Shown: positions 10,243-39,545 of the stretch, piece by piece | Layout of the letters: each line of letters begins with the position of its first letter | Position numbering within the stretch: position 1 is the stretch's first letter | Assembly (NCBI RefSeq): GCF_002549775.1 | Contig: NZ_NMTR01000021.1 | Coordinates: 62,001 to 126,000, forward strand | From: Faecalibacterium langellae | GTDB lineage: Bacteria; Bacillota; Clostridia; Oscillospirales; Ruminococcaceae | Length of the DNA stretch: 64,000 nucleotides | Reading direction: 5' to 3' | Notes under the pieces: generated by a model | The model's database searches: none | Told to the model about the DNA's origin: nothing | The model's input: the letters and a program-made list of their open reading frames with translations, nothing else | Made by a program: the position numbers and the translations under genes

Positions 10243-10271
10243 TTGACAGACGGCCCCGGCTGTGGTAAGAT
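10243..10271 (+). promoter_or_regulatory. Strong sigma-A promoter of the DUF3793 gene
   Basis: TTGACA (10243-10248), 17-nt spacer, TAAGAT (10266-10271). The operator GTTAG-N6-CTAAC begins nine bases after the -10, over the expected transcription start. Confidence 0.85.
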
Positions 10272-10279
10272 ACAGTCAC

Positions 10280-10295
10280 GTTAGAGATAACTAAC
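10280..10295. promoter_or_regulatory. Operator copy 1 (GTTAG-N6-CTAAC)
   Basis: GTTAGAGATAACTAAC, with perfect 5-bp inverted arms, covers the expected +1 to +16 of the DUF3793 transcript. The likely ligand is the DtxR-type repressor encoded at 14588, by inference from shared sites. Confidence 0.65.
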
Positions 10296-10377
10296 TGAGA
10301 GGAACAAGGACAGCGGAGCTGTACGATGCGTGTATCACACAAAACGCGCACAGAGCCGTTTCTTTTTTGAACAATCG

Positions 10378-10393
10378 GTTAGAAATGTCTAAC
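10378..10393. promoter_or_regulatory. Operator copy 2 (GTTAG-N6-CTAAC)
   Basis: GTTAGAAATGTCTAAC, the same perfect arms and spacing as copy 1, 98 bp further on in the leader of the DUF3793 gene. TTGAAC at 10367-10372 could be the -35 of a second, weak promoter it would block. Confidence 0.62.
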
Positions 10394-10454
10394 TCATAAA
10401 CCATCGGGTGTCCGGGCATACTGACTCGGAACCATCACACGGGAGGGCACAGCC

Positions 10455-11036
10455 ATGGAGCGCAATTTTGAAACGGTCATGGTGGAGCAATGTGCCCCGG
10501 TGCTGGCGGGGCTCAAGCCTGCGGGCCTGTTCCGCTACGAGACCGGCGACTGCGCCGACCTTGCCCGCCGCGTGAAAAACTGGAACGCCCAGCTCAACCC
10601 CAAGGGCCTGCAGGTCCGGGTACTGAAGGGCTGTGTGCGCACCCACCGCTATCTTGTGTATGTCTACCGCGAGAGCAAACTGTGCGCCGTCCTTGCGGAC
10701 GAAAAGGTGCAGAGCTTTCTCCGGCAGGAGGGCTACCGTCTGCCCGAAACCGGCGTGCCGGATGTGCACGGCCTGCTGACCCAGCTGTCCCGGCGGCTGT
10801 GCTGCTCGGCAGAATTTCCGCACGAGATCGGCGTTTTTCTGGGCTACCCCCTGAGCGACGTGGTGGGCTTTATTGAAAACAGCGGCCGGAACTTTACCTG
10901 CTGCGGCTGCTGGAAAGCCTACGGGGACCCGCAGGCGGCACAGCGTCACTTTGCACAGCTGCGCAAGTGTACAGCCGTGTATCTGCGATTGTTCCACAGC
11001 GGTACCCCCATTCTCCGCCTTACTGTGGCGGCTTAA
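10455..11036 (+). CDS. DUF3793 family protein, iron-regulon candidate
   Basis: 193 residues, soluble, no signal peptide. I recognise the DUF3793 pattern: an N-terminal EQCAPVLAGLKPAGLF, a middle LVYVYRESKL, and the C-terminal FPHEIGVFLGYPLSDVVGF followed by CCGCWKAYGD. The biochemical function of this family is unknown to me. The gene has a strong promoter with two copies of the operator also found at feoA and the DtxR gene, so control by iron or another metal is likely. GGGAGGG lies eight bases before ATG. The Cys pair in TCCGC and the regulon hint at a role linked to iron or flavodoxin metabolism; that is inference only. Confidence 0.78.
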   Translation: MERNFETVMVEQCAPVLAGLKPAGLFRYETGDCADLARRVKNWNAQLNPKGLQVRVLKGCVRTHRYLVYVYRESKLCAVLADEKVQSFLRQEGYRLPETGVPDVHGLLTQLSRRLCCSAEFPHEIGVFLGYPLSDVVGFIENSGRNFTCCGCWKAYGDPQAAQRHFAQLRKCTAVYLRLFHSGTPILRLTVAA

Positions 11037-11385
11037 CACTGACATTCTCTTTTCAAATACTCTCTTTTTATCCTGGCGCCCGCCGGTGTCCACGCACCGA
11101 TGGGAAGAAATCCTCCTTTTGACACGCGGCCGCGCGGTGCAGACTGACCACTGCACCGTGCGGCTGTGTCACTTTCCGGAAAAATTTTTCACGCCGCACC
11201 GGCCGGTCGGCGCAATATTTCTCGGCAGAAAAACGCTCCGGAAACCGGCTTTGGCAGAGTGCACAGCCGGTGACCGCAAAACGGGTACCAGAATGTTAAC
11301 ATGCACGAACTTTGCATCAAAAAGCTGAGTTAGTTGTTGTTGATTGTGATAAAATCCGGAGAGTTGCGGGGCATAAAATTTGTTT
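11037..11385. other. Non-coding stretch upstream of the feo operon
   Basis: No gene is supported here. It holds the long imperfect hairpin at 11121-11170, a GC-rich part with CCGGCCGG near 11200, and an operator-like half site GTTAG near 11329. The sequence turns AT-rich from about 11340 as it approaches the feo promoter. Confidence 0.6.
11121..11170. repeat. Long imperfect inverted repeat
   Basis: GACACGCGGC...CGGTGCAG (11121-11142) pairs with CTGCACCGTG...TGTGTC (11151-11170) around an 8-base loop. Neither strand has a T-run after it, so it is not a plain terminator. It could be a structured leader, a small RNA or a REP-like element. Confidence 0.6.
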
Positions 11386-11401
11386 GTTTATATAAACTAA
11401 C
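11386..11401. promoter_or_regulatory. Operator copy 3, upstream of the feo promoter
   Basis: GTTTATATAAACTAAC: right arm CTAAC is perfect, left arm GTTTA is degenerate. It also contains the perfect palindrome GTTTATATAAAC. It lies 20 bp before the -35. Confidence 0.5.
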
Positions 11402-11421
11402 TTTGAATTATGAAAAAATTA

Positions 11422-11450
11422 TTGACAAGAGCGGTTAGGGAGTGTAAACT
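11422..11450 (+). promoter_or_regulatory. Promoter of the feo operon
   Basis: TTGACA (11422-11427), 17-nt spacer, TAAACT (11445-11450). Operator copy 4 lies in the spacer and -10. In the transcript, AACTATC (11447-11453) can pair with GATAGTT (11460-11466), and GCGGTTAG (11431-11438) with CTAACCGC (11475-11482). Confidence 0.8.
11434..11449. promoter_or_regulatory. Operator copy 4, inside the feo promoter
   Basis: GTTAGGGAGTGTAAAC: left arm GTTAG is perfect, right arm TAAAC matches CTAAC at three of five bases. Its place between -35 and -10 fits repression by steric block. Confidence 0.5.
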
Positions 11451-11520
11451 ATCCATGCTGATAGTTGCGGCTGACTAACCGCCGCACATCTCCGATTCAA
11501 TGAGAAGGGAAGCGGAATAT

Positions 11521-11736
11521 ATGATGCCTCTGACGATGGCAAAAGCAGGAGAAACGGTCACCATCAAAAAGATCACCGGCAAGGACGAAGTCCGGCTGCA
11601 TCTGGCAGAGCTGGGGTTCGTGGTGGACAGTGAGGTGACCGTGGTCAACGAGATCGCAGGCAACTTGATCATCCAGGTCAAGGAGAGCCGCATCGCGCTG
11701 GACAAGACCATGGCAAATCGCATTATGATCGGTTAA
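11521..11736 (+). CDS. feoA: FeoA-domain protein, first copy
   Basis: 71 residues from ATG 11521; an ATG seven codons earlier (11500) is in frame, but the AGAAGGGAAG at 11503 fits only the later start. FeoA is a small SH3-like cytoplasmic protein that binds FeoB and supports ferrous iron uptake. The fold motifs are visible as KAGETVTIKKITG, HLAELGFVVDSEVTVV and IQVKESRIALDKTMANRIMI. It is the first gene of the operon. The following gap contains two hairpins, AACGGTGT/ACACCGTT (11746-11766) and GGAGAC/GTCTCC (11769-11797), that may tune expression of the next gene. Confidence 0.9.
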   Translation: MMPLTMAKAGETVTIKKITGKDEVRLHLAELGFVVDSEVTVVNEIAGNLIIQVKESRIALDKTMANRIMIG

Positions 11737-11825
11737 ATTTGGCTGAACGGTGTCCGCAACACCGTTTGGGAGACACTCCGAAACTGGACTCGTCTCCAAT
11801 AAAGACAAGTAGAGGAGGATTTACA

Positions 11826-12047
11826 ATGAAGACTCTGAAAGACGCCAAGGTCGGCGAGACCGTCACCGTGGCAAAGCTGCACGGCGAAGGCCCCGTGAAG
11901 CGCCGCATCATGGACATGGGCATCACCAAGGGTGTGGAGATCTATGTCCGCAAGGTGGCACCTCTGGGCGACCCCATGGAGCTGACCGTGCGCAACTACG
12001 AGCTGAGCGTGCGCAAGGCCGACGCCGAAATGATCGAAATCGTCTGA
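11826..12047 (+). CDS. feoA: FeoA-domain protein, second copy
   Basis: 73 residues from ATG 11826, with GAGGAGG a standard distance upstream; a longer frame from 11739 lacks a ribosome site and family similarity. Motifs match FeoA: DAKVGETVTVAKLHGEG, RRIMDMGITKGVEIYV, and the final NYELSVRKADAEMIEI. It differs clearly from the first copy, so the two may be a working pair rather than a recent duplication. It lies 25 bases before feoB and is presumably co-transcribed with it. Confidence 0.92.
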   Translation: MKTLKDAKVGETVTVAKLHGEGPVKRRIMDMGITKGVEIYVRKVAPLGDPMELTVRNYELSVRKADAEMIEIV

Positions 12048-12072
12048 TTCCAAAGGGAGGAAAGGTAACGCA

Positions 12073-14259
12073 ATGAGCATTAAGATTGCACTCGCCGGTA
12101 ACCCGAACTGCGGTAAAACGACCCTGTTCAATAATCTGACCGGCTCCAATCAGTACGTCGGCAACTGGCCCGGCGTTACGGTGGAAAAGAAGGAAGGCAA
12201 GCTGAAGGGCGATAAGGATGTCATCATCCAGGACCTGCCCGGTATCTACTCGCTGTCTCCGTACACGCTGGAGGAAGTCGTCTCCCGTACCTACCTGGTC
12301 AAGGAGAAGCCCGATGCCATCCTGAACATCATCGACGGCACCAACATCGAGCGTAACCTGTACCTGACCACCCAGCTGATCGAGCTGGGTATCCCGGTGG
12401 TCATGGCTGTGAACATGATCGACCTGGTGCGCAAGAACGGCGACAAGATCGACCTGAAGAAGCTGAGCGCCGAGCTGGGCTGCGAGGCGGTCGAGATCAG
12501 CGCCTTGAAGGGTGAGGGCACCGAGGCAGCTGCCAAGGCTGCCGTGACCGCTGCCCAGGGCAAAAAGGCCGGTGAGCTGCCCCATGTGTTTACCGGCAGT
12601 GTGGAGCACGCCATCGCTCACATTGAGGAGTCCATTCAGGGCAAGGTCGATGACCGCTTCCTGCGCTGGTACGCCGTCAAGCTGTTCGAGCGCGACGACA
12701 AGGTCATGGACGAGCTGAAGCTCGACAAGAGCCTGATCGACCACATCGACCAGCACATCAAGGACTGCGAAGCTGAGATGGACGATGACGCCGAGAGCAT
12801 CATCACCAACCAGCGCTATGCCTACATCAACACCGTGGTCTCCAAGGCCGTCAAGAAGAAGGCCCGCGTGGAGCACCTGACCGTCTCCGATAAGGTGGAC
12901 CAGATCGTCACCAACCGCATTCTGGCGCTGCCCATCTTCGCGCTGGTCATGATCCTGATGTACTCCCTGTCCATGGGCACCTCCATTGCAGACGGCGGCT
13001 GGTCCATCGGCACCTTTGCCACCGACTGGACCAATGATGTGCTGTTCGGTGAGATCGTGCCGGGCGCGCTGGGCGGCTTCCTGGAGAGCATCGGCGTGGC
13101 AGGCTGGCTGTACGGCCTGATCATGGACGGCATCGTCGCCGGTGTCGGCGCAGTTCTGGGCTTCGTGCCGCAGATGCTGGTCCTGTTCTTCCTGCTGTCC
13201 ATCCTGGAGGACATCGGCTATATGTCCCGTGTGGCCTTCATCATGGACCGTATCTTCCGCAAGTTCGGCCTGTCCGGCAAGAGCTTCATCCCCGTGCTGG
13301 TGGGCACCGGCTGCGGCGTGCCGGGCGTCATGGCTTCCCGTACCATCGAGAACGAGCGTGACCGCCGCATGACCATCATGACCACCTGCTTCATCCCCTG
13401 CGGTGCCAAGATGCCCATCATCGGCCTGATCGCAGGTGCCATGTTCGGCGGCTCTCCGCTGGTGGCTGTTTCTGCTTACTTCATCGGCATGGCTGCCATC
13501 ATCTGCTCCGGCATCATCCTGAAAAAGACCAAGATCTTCGCAGGCGACCCCGCTCCCTTCGTCATGGAGCTGCCCGCTTACCATGTGCCTGCATGGGGCA
13601 ACGTGTTCCGTGCCACCTGGGAGCGCGGCTGGTCCTTCATCAAGCGTGCCGGTTCCGTCATTCTGCTGGCGACCGTCGTGCTGTGGTTCCTGCAGGGCTT
13701 CGGCTTCGAGAACGGTGCCTTCGGCATGGTCGAGGATCAGGACAACTCCGTCCTGGCTGCCATCGCCACCAAGATCGCATGGATCTTCGCTCCTCTGGGC
13801 TTCGGCAACTGGCGTGCAACCGTTGCTTCCGTCTCCGGCCTGATCGCCAAGGAGAACGTTGTTGGTACCTTCGGTGTTCTGTATCACTTCGGCGGCGAGC
13901 TGTCTGAGAACGGCGACGAGATCTGGGCCGCTGTGGCACAGGATTACACCGCACTGTCTGCTTACGCCTTCATGATCTTCAACCTGCTGTGCGCTCCCTG
14001 CTTCGCAGCGATGGGCGCCATCAAGCGCGAGATGAACAACGGCAAGTGGACCGCTATCGCCATTGGTTATATGTGCGCTCTGGCTTACTGCGCCGCTCTG
14101 GTGGTGTACCAGCTGGGCGGCCTGATCACCGGTGAGATTGGCTTCAACTTCTTCACCATCGTGGCTGCTGTTGTTCTGGTGGCCTTCATCTACCTGATGG
14201 TGCGTCCCAACAAGTACGCGGGCAACAACGAAGTCAAGATCGACGTGACCAAGATCTGA
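12073..14259 (+). CDS. feoB: Ferrous iron transporter FeoB
   Basis: 728 residues. FeoB is the inner-membrane Fe(II) transporter with an N-terminal G-protein domain. The G motifs are GNPNCGKTT (about 8-16), the switch region NWPGVTVEKK, DLPGIYSL (DxxG), NMIDL (NxxD-type specificity) and SALKGEG. After a helical spacer (about 170-275) come the membrane segments in two Gate-like repeats, with GTGCGVPGVMASR and TCFIPCGAKMPII carrying the conserved Cys residues of the pore. Length is normal. It sits in the order feoA-feoA-feoB-Cys-rich peptide. Expression is probably repressed when iron is plentiful through the operators upstream. Confidence 0.97.
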   Translation: MSIKIALAGNPNCGKTTLFNNLTGSNQYVGNWPGVTVEKKEGKLKGDKDVIIQDLPGIYSLSPYTLEEVVSRTYLVKEKPDAILNIIDGTNIERNLYLTTQLIELGIPVVMAVNMIDLVRKNGDKIDLKKLSAELGCEAVEISALKGEGTEAAAKAAVTAAQGKKAGELPHVFTGSVEHAIAHIEESIQGKVDDRFLRWYAVKLFERDDKVMDELKLDKSLIDHIDQHIKDCEAEMDDDAESIITNQRYAYINTVVSKAVKKKARVEHLTVSDKVDQIVTNRILALPIFALVMILMYSLSMGTSIADGGWSIGTFATDWTNDVLFGEIVPGALGGFLESIGVAGWLYGLIMDGIVAGVGAVLGFVPQMLVLFFLLSILEDIGYMSRVAFIMDRIFRKFGLSGKSFIPVLVGTGCGVPGVMASRTIENERDRRMTIMTTCFIPCGAKMPIIGLIAGAMFGGSPLVAVSAYFIGMAAIICSGIILKKTKIFAGDPAPFVMELPAYHVPAWGNVFRATWERGWSFIKRAGSVILLATVVLWFLQGFGFENGAFGMVEDQDNSVLAAIATKIAWIFAPLGFGNWRATVASVSGLIAKENVVGTFGVLYHFGGELSENGDEIWAAVAQDYTALSAYAFMIFNLLCAPCFAAMGAIKREMNNGKWTAIAIGYMCALAYCAALVVYQLGGLITGEIGFNFFTIVAAVVLVAFIYLMVRPNKYAGNNEVKIDVTKI

Positions 14260-14294
14260 TCAAACTGCACGATATGTGAAAGGGTGTGTTTTGT

Positions 14295-14468
14295 ATGATG
14301 GAATTCCTCGCTGCAAATTTTAATCTGCCCACGATCATTGTGGCAGTCATCGTGTTTGGCGGTGTGGGCTGGATCACATGGCACTCCCACAAGCATGGCG
14401 GCGGCTGCAGTGGGTGCAGCGGCTGCGGCGAAGGCGGCTGCAATGGCAGCTGCAGCGGCTGTCACTGA
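14295..14468 (+). CDS. FeoB-associated Cys-rich membrane peptide
   Basis: 57 residues from ATG 14295 (GTG 14286 and ATG 14298 are also in frame; AAAGGGTG at 14279 fits 14295 best). One membrane helix, LPTIIVAVIVFGGVGWITW, is followed by HSHKHGGG and a tail with six Cys in CxxC-type spacing and two more His. This matches the small Cys-rich proteins that follow feoB in many Clostridia and may bind Fe(II) at the membrane or aid FeoB assembly; its role is unproven. It closes the feo operon before a strong terminator. Confidence 0.85.
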   Translation: MMEFLAANFNLPTIIVAVIVFGGVGWITWHSHKHGGGCSGCSGCGEGGCNGSCSGCH

Positions 14469-14487
14469 GCATTGAAATGATCCGCAA

Positions 14488-14525
14488 AGGGCGCGGGCTG
14501 GAACATTCGGCTCGCGCCCTTTTTT
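14488..14525 (+). terminator. Terminator of the feo operon
   Basis: AGGGCGCGGGC pairs with GCTCGCGCCCT around a short loop, followed by six Ts. Confidence 0.88.
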
Positions 14526-14537
14526 CAGAAACAAAAA

Positions 14538-14553
14538 GTTAGCTTTGGATAAC
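14538..14553. promoter_or_regulatory. Operator copy 5, upstream of the DtxR-type gene
   Basis: GTTAGCTTTGGATAAC: left arm perfect, right arm ATAAC one base off. It overlaps a -10-like GGATAACAT just after the feo terminator, which suggests the repressor controls its own operon. Confidence 0.55.
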
Positions 14554-14587: not shown

Positions 14588-14992
14588 ATGGAACTGACGT
14601 CGGCACATCTGCGCTATCTGCTGGCGATCTATGAGGTCTCGCGCACCCACCTGGACATCAGCTCCCGTAGCATTGCGGAAAAGCTGGGGGTGACCAAACC
14701 CTCGGTGGTGCGCATCATGAACCTGCTGATGGACCGCGGCATGATCGTCAAGGAGCATTACGGCAAAATTTACCTCACGGACCGCGGCATCTGGGTGGCA
14801 AAACAGGTGGACCAGGAGCTGCAGAACATTCTGGCCCACTTCCCGCCGGTGAGCGCGCCGCTGACCGAGGAAGAAAAGTGGAACGCGGCGCTGGCCATGA
14901 CCAGTGCCCTGCCGGACCGCATCTTCACCGGCGAATACGACCGTCTGTTCGGCGAAGACGCTGAAAAGGCAGAAACGGAGAAAGCTCAGTGA
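14588..14992 (+). CDS. DtxR/MntR-family metal-dependent repressor
   Basis: 134 residues from ATG 14588; AAAAGAGAG is well spaced for it, while the in-frame TTG at 14555 is not. The N-terminal winged helix is clear: LRYLLAIYEVS, then SIAEKLGVTKPSVVRIMNLL (recognition helix) and EHYGKIYLTDRG. Iron-bound DtxR or manganese-bound MntR proteins repress uptake genes. At 134 residues it is short, like MntR, and lacks the SH3 domain of DtxR. Its metal is uncertain: its place after feo and the shared operators favour iron. It overlaps the next gene by four bases (GTGA), so it forms an operon with the exporter pair. Confidence 0.88.
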   Translation: MELTSAHLRYLLAIYEVSRTHLDISSRSIAEKLGVTKPSVVRIMNLLMDRGMIVKEHYGKIYLTDRGIWVAKQVDQELQNILAHFPPVSAPLTEEEKWNAALAMTSALPDRIFTGEYDRLFGEDAEKAETEKAQ

Positions 14993-39091: not shown

Positions 39092-39545
39092 CACAGCAGG
39101 GGCATTTTTGTGCGGTTTGCTCGGGCTGGCCCTCTTTTTGTGCGCAGTGGCGGCACAATCCGTACAACACGCTGCCCTCGCACTGCAAAGTGAAGCCGTG
39201 CTCTGCCATCAGGTGGGCCCGCACCTCGTCCATGAAGTGGCAGTCCAGGTGATAGATGCGCCCGCACTGCACGCACTTCAGGTGCAGGTGCTCCCGGCAG
39301 TGACGGCTCTCGTCCACATACTGGAACACGGCCTTCTCGCCCTTGTCGGCAACGTATTTCATGATGCGCTGCTCCCCGGCCAGCTTGTCCAGATAGCGGT
39401 ACACCGTGGTGGGGTTGGGGCTGGCGCCCTGTTCTTCCAGGTGCTCCAGAATGTTGGAAGCACTCACCGCGTGCTGGCGATTGTTGATGAGATAATCCAG
39501 GATCAGCTGCCGCGTTTTGGTATTGTAGCCGTCGCTTCGTGCCAT
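39069..39545 (-). CDS. Fur-family transcriptional regulator
   Basis: 158 residues from ATG 39545; earlier in-frame ATGs lack ribosome sites, and this one has only AAAGGG about 13 bases away. The winged helix is seen in SASNILEHLEEQG and NPTTVYRYLDKLA. The dimer domain has HCREHLHLKCVQCGRIYHLDCHF with metal ligands, and CxxC pairs CVQC and CRHC for structural zinc. An extra C-terminal tail with QKCPCCVDTD is unusual. The member could be Zur, PerR or Fur; the spacing does not decide. A separate DtxR protein likely handles feo, so zinc or peroxide sensing is plausible. Confidence 0.85.
   Translation of the reverse strand: MARSDGYNTKTRQLILDYLINNRQHAVSASNILEHLEEQGASPNPTTVYRYLDKLAGEQRIMKYVADKGEKAVFQYVDESRHCREHLHLKCVQCGRIYHLDCHFMDEVRAHLMAEHGFTLQCEGSVLYGLCRHCAQKEGQPEQTAQKCPCCVDTDKKP

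Follow-up and report, generated by a model that had tools for sequence, protein, structure and literature searches.

The locus studied here raises the question of which protein reads the palindromes of the type GTTAG-N6-CTAAC that have been recognised at three iron-linked promoters of the window, i.e. of the whole 64,000-nucleotide stretch that was analysed (C11:62001-126000 of the 2.82-Mb genome G000). The original prediction regarded the palindrome as a possible lineage-specific metal box and the DtxR-type protein encoded at 14588 as its reader. The results described below lead to a different assignment: with a probability of roughly 0.8, GTTAG-N6-CTAAC serves as the operator for an EqbA-like, SH3-less repressor of the DtxR/IdeR type encoded outside the window, at C33:50320-50709. 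More generally, the box, which stands before genes of iron uptake and iron sparing, is very probably bound by an iron repressor of the DtxR type that many Clostridia possess, in a group for which Fur, a repressor of unrelated origin, would usually be expected.

Occurrence of the palindrome in the genome

All five sites that had been proposed in the window are found at their places, those at 10280-10295 and 10378-10393 being perfect in both arms. The genome-wide search suggested together with the original prediction was run with both arms of the pattern, the same pattern read backwards serving as the control, and the downstream genes were listed. It yielded 14 perfect sites in the 2.82-Mb genome against none for the reversed control at N6. 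If all spacers from 0 to 25 are considered, 14 of the 20 perfect-arm matches fall at N6, the reversed control giving 35 matches, i.e. about 1.3 per spacer. Naive ORF calling places two of the 14 perfect sites wholly within ORFs, with some others overlapping an ORF edge. Of the two enclosing ORFs, one runs antisense to flavodoxin and the second failed the codon-composition filter, so that none of the 14 is judged to lie inside a real gene.

The 227 unique perfect sites define a fuller box, [GA]GTTAG-H-N4-D-CTAAC[CT], in which the outer G/C are set by the search pattern, G directly after TTAG is present in 5% of the boxes and the flanks reveal no fixed letters outside the [GA]...[CT]. Pairs of boxes situated 17-160 bp apart exhibit a spacing peak at 33-36 bp (22 of 102).

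It should be noted that sites with one mismatch show no excess genome-wide (21 versus 23 in the control) and were rejected as regulon members; since they are at background, the three weaker sites of the window need support other than the motif. As leads only, sites of this kind are seen before a second feoAB transporter (feoAB-2; site at C6:23584), a ZIP-like gene without Pfam or NCBIfam match, rnf, a P1B ATPase with DUF6110 and a gene with a weak NifU_N match. The palindrome GTTYG-N6-CRAAC, considered as a second operator family, was rejected as well (seven sites versus six in the control genome-wide); four of its seven sites are found at the C33 promoter, near the ZIP-like gene, or at C11:886487 and C11:888702 in the HMA/DUF454 region.

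Boxes at the promoters of the window

The upstream regions were compared in an alignment of the window with seven Faecalibacterium loci, four MAG loci that carry the Faecalibacterium label but are more distant being excluded. The DUF3793 gene (10455..11036, plus strand; PF12672, E 3.8e-54) is preceded by a promoter at 10243..10271 of the same strand, composed of TTGACA, a 17-nt spacer and TAAGAT preceded by TG, the TTGACA being invariant in the window and the seven loci. The first box, GTTAGAGATAACTAAC (10280..10295), sits just past the -10 and over the expected transcription start, in agreement with the prediction, and is perfect in all eight loci, the window included; the second, GTTAGAAATGTCTAAC (10378..10393), belongs to the leader and is perfect in five of the eight loci and altered by one mismatch in three, the window again being counted. 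A perfect box was found around the ORF start in 20 of the 22 DUF3793 genes present in the loci examined and a box within one mismatch in 21, with none in the control, in a sample that is not blind because these loci were picked for feoB or DtxR. Flavodoxin directly follows DUF3793 in 11 of the 22 cases. DUF3793, for which a search of open-access papers returned a single match on an unrelated topic, gains in this way a context as a probable iron-starvation gene.

Concerning the feo locus, its plus strand carries two FeoA-domain genes (11500..11736, with the start perhaps at the ATG at 11521, PF04023, E 6.2e-18; and 11826..12047, PF04023, E 1.9e-20), feoB (12073..14259; PF02421, E 1.7e-65, plus other FeoB domains) and a gene weakly matching the FeoB-associated Cys-rich membrane protein (14286..14468; PF12669, 22.2 bits, below the cut-off of 27). 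The closest named feo locus among the best 80 of 584 feoB relatives is that of Faecalibacterium sp. I4-3-84, with 97% FeoB identity. The feo promoter, TTGACA-17-TAAACT (11422..11450, plus strand), has both hexamers invariant in all eight loci. Its spacer and -10 are spanned by box A, GTTAGGGAGTGTAAAC (11434..11449), as expected from the sites claimed around the -35/-10; this box has two mismatches and a right arm merged with the -10, and is supported by GGTTAG and TAAACTATC, the latter running through the -10, both invariant in the window and the seven Faecalibacterium loci. A further site with two mismatches, box B, GTTGCGGCTGACTAAC (11464..11479), had been overlooked; its CTGACTAAC is invariant in the eight loci and it comes to one mismatch in three of the seven (L042, L043 and L061). 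The site proposed at 11386-11401 is present with two mismatches, but it is better assigned to another palindrome in a shifted position, GTTTG-TTTATA-TAAAC (GTTTG-N6-TAAAC, 11382..11397), conserved in the alignment of the eight loci upstream of the feo -35. The stretch 11433-11480 could also be drawn as an RNA hairpin, but this reading was not retained, the left arm probably falling ahead of the point where transcription is expected to start.

The third promoter is that of the 14588 gene, where the box GTTAGCTTTGGATAAC (14538..14553) was confirmed with one mismatch, both in the window and in five of the seven Faecalibacterium loci; it has two mismatches in L046 and is absent in L044. The view that the boxes form an operator family of the metal type at iron-linked promoters is upheld.

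In Faecalibacterium, the boxes found at feo are degenerate ones, and in four loci (L041, L044, L045 and L046) the 900 bp preceding feoB contain none within one mismatch. This counts against the explanation preferred here, as an iron response is known for this very operon. According to excerpts of PMC10781979, feoB of F. duncaniae is repressed by ferrous sulfate (FeSO4) and flavodoxin rises together with feo, no regulator of this iron repression being named there. The same excerpts describe feoAB of F. duncaniae as unresponsive to iron; the one-mismatch site before its counterpart, at C6:23584, may therefore be idle.

Distribution of the box and of its candidate readers

The best 80 of 584 feoB relatives were kept, and 74 related named loci hold 900 bp of upstream sequence. 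Within this distance of feoB, a perfect box occurs in 56 of the 74 (control 0) and a box within one mismatch in 67 (control 1). The 148 genomes of the family contain 677 boxes against 232 in the control, with at least one box in 127 of them. These numbers—along with the 14 perfect sites against none in the genome and the perfect box around the start of 20 of the 22 DUF3793 genes—contradict chance as the source of the perfect sites, so that the idea of chance palindromes in AT-rich intergenic DNA, to which the background level of the one-mismatch sites would conform, retains only a negligible probability.

The boxes are distributed together with a second DtxR protein, encoded on contig C33. Family genomes with a C33-type protein (129) contain 661 boxes versus 203 in the control, and those without it (19) contain 16 versus 29, which corresponds, for counts not corrected for ancestry, to p-values of 1.8e-8 (Fisher) and 2.9e-7 (rank test). 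At the level of the class, the 176 genomes with a C33-type protein (E <= 1e-15) have 643 boxes versus 331 and the 115 genomes without it 99 versus 203 (Fisher 2.2e-24, likewise not ancestry-corrected). Across the class, box enrichment can be predicted from the presence of a C33-type protein. On the other side, six of the class genomes lacking a C33 match have at least four boxes, three of them well above the control (11/1, 8/1 and 5/1). It should be added that small or incomplete genomes account for several of those without C33, a circumstance for which only the reversed-pattern control adjusts. The box is accordingly not specific to this lineage, although this had been considered possible: its enrichment is seen throughout the family and, wherever a C33-type protein is present, in the class; moreover, the EqbA operator of a streptococcal mobile element is built around it.

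Two other regulator families were compared with C33 in the same way, and the presence of either was found to be a much weaker predictor of boxes. Fur is, according to partial text of PMC10317159, the usual iron repressor of low-GC Gram-positives, and a relation between Fur presence and boxes does exist (Fisher 0.006, rank test 0.012), weaker than that for C33. The genome has two Fur-family proteins, the PerR-like one at C11:633420 and a Fur or Zur at C11:101183, i.e. at 39183-39524 of the window on the minus strand; one of the two scores best on PerR (83.8 bits) and the other on Fur (48.1 bits; Zur 42.4), all below the cut-offs. The enrichment, however, does not follow Fur where C33 is absent (13 boxes versus 24 in the control, 12 genomes), and it persists where C33 is present and Fur is not (63 versus 34, 18 genomes, with 10 versus 1 in each of G002 and G124). 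Given also the DtxR geometry of the box and the precedent of its binding by a DtxR protein, a Fur-family reader is very unlikely and was rejected.

Regulators of the CRP/FNR type also use 5-bp arms separated by N6. Reading of the box by such a protein would be in line with this spacing, with pflB among the targets, with three cNMP-binding matches in the genome and with a weak link between CRP presence and boxes in the rank test (p 0.022). The totals, on the other hand, give no such link (555/183 with CRP versus 122/49 without, Fisher 0.33), and the boxes remain enriched with C33 in the absence of CRP (116 versus 34, 26 genomes) and are not enriched with CRP in the absence of C33 (10 versus 14, nine genomes). 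On balance, a CRP-type protein is a very improbable reader and was not retained.

The C33-type protein and known DtxR systems

There are three PF01325 matches in the genome, namely the C33 protein, the 14588 protein and C78. The C33 protein consists of 130 residues, and all 24 members of the C33-type alignment A2 possess both PF01325 (N-terminal DNA-binding) and PF02742 (metal-binding/dimerisation). The assignment of the reader to the DtxR kind, which was already part of the original prediction, is strong. Most likely, the box is read by the C33 protein itself; the distribution of the boxes and the residues described below suggest this protein as their binder and Fe2+ as its metal.

The metal ligands were counted in 77 C33-type proteins, seven weaker matches of 84 being left out. 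In MntR numbering, His77, Glu102 and His103 are present in all 77 and Glu11 in 75 (with two gaps); position 8 is occupied by D in 47, N in 19 and M in nine, with two gaps, and the position of MntR Glu99 is Cys in 77 of 77. The latter corresponds to Cys102 of IdeR, and a sulfur ligand there raises the selectivity for Fe2+, as described in excerpts of PMC10317159.

The closest solved relative of the C33 protein by sequence is the MntR from Bacillus subtilis (E 4.2e-13), with which it shares the two-domain size and the equivalents of Asp8, Glu11, His77, Glu102 and His103, and from which the C33 type differs by the Cys in place of Glu99 and by its iron-type targets. A C33 protein that reads the box and senses manganese would agree with this relatedness, the best solved and NCBIfam matches both being manganese MntRs, and with the Asp at the Asp8 position in 47 of the 77 proteins. 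Such a reading is nevertheless unlikely in view of the invariant Fe2+-selective Cys, of scores below the cut-offs of the NCBIfam MntR equivalogs (80.8 of 153 and 68.8 of 138 bits), and of the targets feo, flavodoxin and pyruvate formate-lyase, feoB responding to FeSO4 (excerpts of PMC10781979).

The assignment to an iron-sensing C33-type repressor is in accordance with the surroundings of its own genes. A perfect box lies within 300 bp upstream of 30 of 76 C33-type genes versus 0 of 1520 shuffles, and of 13 of the 51 that were chosen by protein similarity only (control 0). The remaining 38 of these 51 have no perfect box. In 12 loci the C33-type gene is divergent from feo (L055, L064, L065, L069, L071, L074, L090, L094, L099, L107, L115 and L117). 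It also counts against the assignment that the C33 gene of this very genome is not preceded by any box within one mismatch, the best site being GTTTGTTTTAACAAAC with two mismatches.

The layout of the box indeed differs, as originally stated, from the 19-bp DtxR/IdeR box; it is, however, equal to the span of one of its two dimers. In excerpts of PMC8464063, each dimer on the 19-bp IdeR box contacts the repeats 1 and 3 or 2 and 4, and single-dimer binding is reported for the half site TTAGG-N4-CCTAA. Both pairs of repeats read TTAG-N6-CTAA, and GTTAG-N6-CTAAC is therefore understood as a single-dimer box and not as a foreign layout. Common features with the DtxR/IdeR box, TTAGGTTAGSCTAACCTAA, are the TTAG-N6-CTAA per dimer, the position over the -10 and start site and the Cys ligand (PMC8464063 and PMC10317159, both in part). 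What differs is that the second overlapping dimer site is missing here, that G after TTAG is depleted and the outer G/C, which belong to the search pattern, are fixed instead, and that the C33-type protein, with about 120-135 residues, lacks the SH3 domain. The boxes do not follow the classic IdeR layout with four CCTAA repeats and outer arms TTAGG-N9-CCTAA, G following TTAG in 5% of the 227 sites. In an alignment with the IdeR helix, the Gln43 position is occupied by I or V in eight helix strings, a substitution that may be linked with the rarity of that G (5%). Gln43 of IdeR contacts the first C of CCTAA (partial text of PMC8464063).

The nearest precedent is EqbA from ICESe2 of Streptococcus equi, compared here by its description in excerpts of PMC3672683, where it is a DtxR protein that lacks the SH3 domain and has Cys104 and Asn13. 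The eqbB operator contains GTTAGATGTATCTAAC, the palindrome is needed for the gel shift, and the shift of DNA is enhanced by Fe2+ and Zn2+ and less by Mn2+. EqbA thus resembles the C33 type in the missing SH3 domain, in the Cys equivalent to DtxR Cys102 (77 of 77 here), in the control of iron acquisition and in an operator that includes the same GTTAG-N6-CTAAC core; its Asn at the position equivalent to Met10 is found in 19 of the 77 C33-type proteins. By that partial account, EqbA controls one gene cluster on a mobile element, while the present regulon is chromosomal and multi-operon, spread across the family and a large part of the class. The EqbA operator is a palindrome of 36 bp, with which the 227 sites share the 16-bp core alone, and the C33 protein is for this reason called EqbA-like rather than a proven member of the EqbA subclass. 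The 36-bp palindrome is known from one operator only and may not be a defining feature.

Proposed regulon and mechanism

The 14 perfect sites are located before DUF3793 (two), flavodoxin (two), pyruvate formate-lyase (two, 26 and about 360 bp upstream) and a methyltransferase operon (two), between flavodoxin and ygbA (one), and before a Tp47-like secreted protein, an unannotated secreted protein, an HMA-domain protein, DUF454 and an alpha/beta hydrolase split over two ORFs. The targets feo, DUF3793, flavodoxin and pyruvate formate-lyase fit iron starvation, and the list beyond feo and flavodoxin is to be taken as putative.

With enough Fe2+, the repressor dimer would be loaded with metal and one dimer would occupy each box, its recognition helices touching TTAG and CTAA one helical turn apart. 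At DUF3793 and feo the boxes overlie either the start of transcription or the promoter spacer with the -10, so that the polymerase would presumably be blocked there. As iron falls, the dimer would lose its metal and leave the box; ferrous uptake by feo would then be turned on, as would DUF3793, flavodoxin would replace ferredoxin and pyruvate formate-lyase would take the place of the iron-rich PFOR.

In low-GC Gram-positives, iron has been attributed to Fur and the DtxR proteins have been limited to manganese sensing (2023 review, PMC10317159, in part). Together with the protein that accompanies it, the box suggests that an iron repressor of the DtxR type operates in a large part of the class Clostridia, which includes a major human gut butyrate producer with an iron-repressed feo (excerpts of PMC10781979), and the box offers a ready means to read iron regulons in Clostridia genomes. 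Neither such a box nor a DtxR iron regulator has been proposed for Faecalibacterium or its family in the open-access titles and abstract beginnings listed, which in several cases covered some of the matches (for example 20 of 56, 15 of 186 or 20 of 278), a negative that is weak because only open-access papers were covered.

The protein encoded at 14588

The 14588 gene (14588..14992, plus strand) encodes, according to profile matches, ligand alignment and a structure model, a DtxR-fold protein without metal ligands. The model (pLDDT 86.6) has MntR and DtxR chains as its top structure matches, with Z 14.0 and an rmsd of 3.1 over 104 residues versus MntR. The ligand positions were inspected in 17 relatives, 22 weaker matches of 39 being left out. 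Those of Asp8, Glu11, His77, Glu102 and His103 are occupied in all 17 by R, L/F/M, L/V, A/T and A/S/V, respectively, and that of Glu99 is Cys in three. Close relatives are rare, being found at E < 1e-17 in four of the 148 family genomes, the genome studied here included.

Of the original proposal that this protein reads the metal box, the DtxR fold has been retained, but all 17 relatives have lost five of the six ligand positions, and the box tracks the C33-type protein instead. A role as the metal-responsive reader would be compatible with the DtxR/MntR fold and the adjoining feo, with the one-mismatch box before the gene in the window and five of the seven Faecalibacterium loci, and with the recognition helix TKPSV, similar to TKASV of C33. 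Against it stand the lost ligands and the 125 genomes with C33 but without a 14588-type relative, which keep 628 boxes versus 198 in the control. The 14588 protein is thus probably not a metal-responsive reader, and the opposite is decidedly unlikely.

A more speculative reading, on the whole rather doubtful, is that two DtxR-fold proteins share one set of boxes: a widespread EqbA-like Fe2+ repressor of the C33 type, replacing Fur as the master iron repressor in much of Clostridia, and a metal-blind paralogue of the 14588 type, encoded just downstream of feoB and acting as a metal-independent competitor, a heterodimer partner or a sensor of another signal. If this were so, the 14588 type would give feo an expression distinct from that of the other members of the regulon. 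The two-protein reading would place the 14588 type in Faecalibacterium, Gemmiger and some Oscillibacter-like genomes, with a similar recognition helix kept.

Promoter elements and a Fur-family gene

Positions 11433-11480 of the window, in the feo promoter, form an imperfect dyad of 48 bp (GGTTAG...ACTATC-N6-GATAGT...CTAACC), the inner parts of which, ACTATC and GATAGT, are invariant or nearly so in the alignment of the window with seven other Faecalibacterium loci; these inner parts are not accounted for by the boxes GTTAG-N6-CTAAC, the proposed DtxR-type iron operators. A variant palindrome, GTTTG-N6-CAAAC or similar, is found beside boxes (window 11382-11397; source genome contigs C22:120008-120023 and C11:888702-888717) and at the promoter of the candidate DtxR-type reader of the box (C33:50206-50221), and it shows no enrichment across the whole source genome. 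As for the Fur-family gene at 39183-39524 of the window (minus strand), the NCBIfam scores of its protein for Fur and for Zur are both far under the cut-offs.

Gene neighbourhoods

Downstream of feoB, a DtxR-fold protein lacking the conserved metal ligands is encoded in the window (14588-14992) and in 17 loci of relatives (L041-L049, L055, L058, L060, L061, L064, L065, L072 and L078). The same slot in four Gemmiger loci (L050-L053) is occupied by a relative of the candidate reader (C33:50320-50709), sharing 58-62% identity with it, as if either DtxR type were able to occupy this position.

The flavodoxin gene lies directly 3' of DUF3793 in half of the 22 DUF3793 genes found in the fetched loci (L055, L058, L060, L065, L077, L090, L112, L159, L196, L201 and L203), the naive ORFs of the two overlapping at L077. 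The related genomes G140, G134 and G137 contain 20, 21 and 24 perfect boxes, respectively, many of them grouped close to a gene of the candidate reader type (L197, L200-L203), which in G134 and G137 is divergent from DUF3793-flavodoxin. Judged by eye, the neighbouring genes resemble those for ABC exporters, ECF-type transporters and a methyltransferase, along with an AraC-like gene; these clusters may represent large iron-uptake islands.
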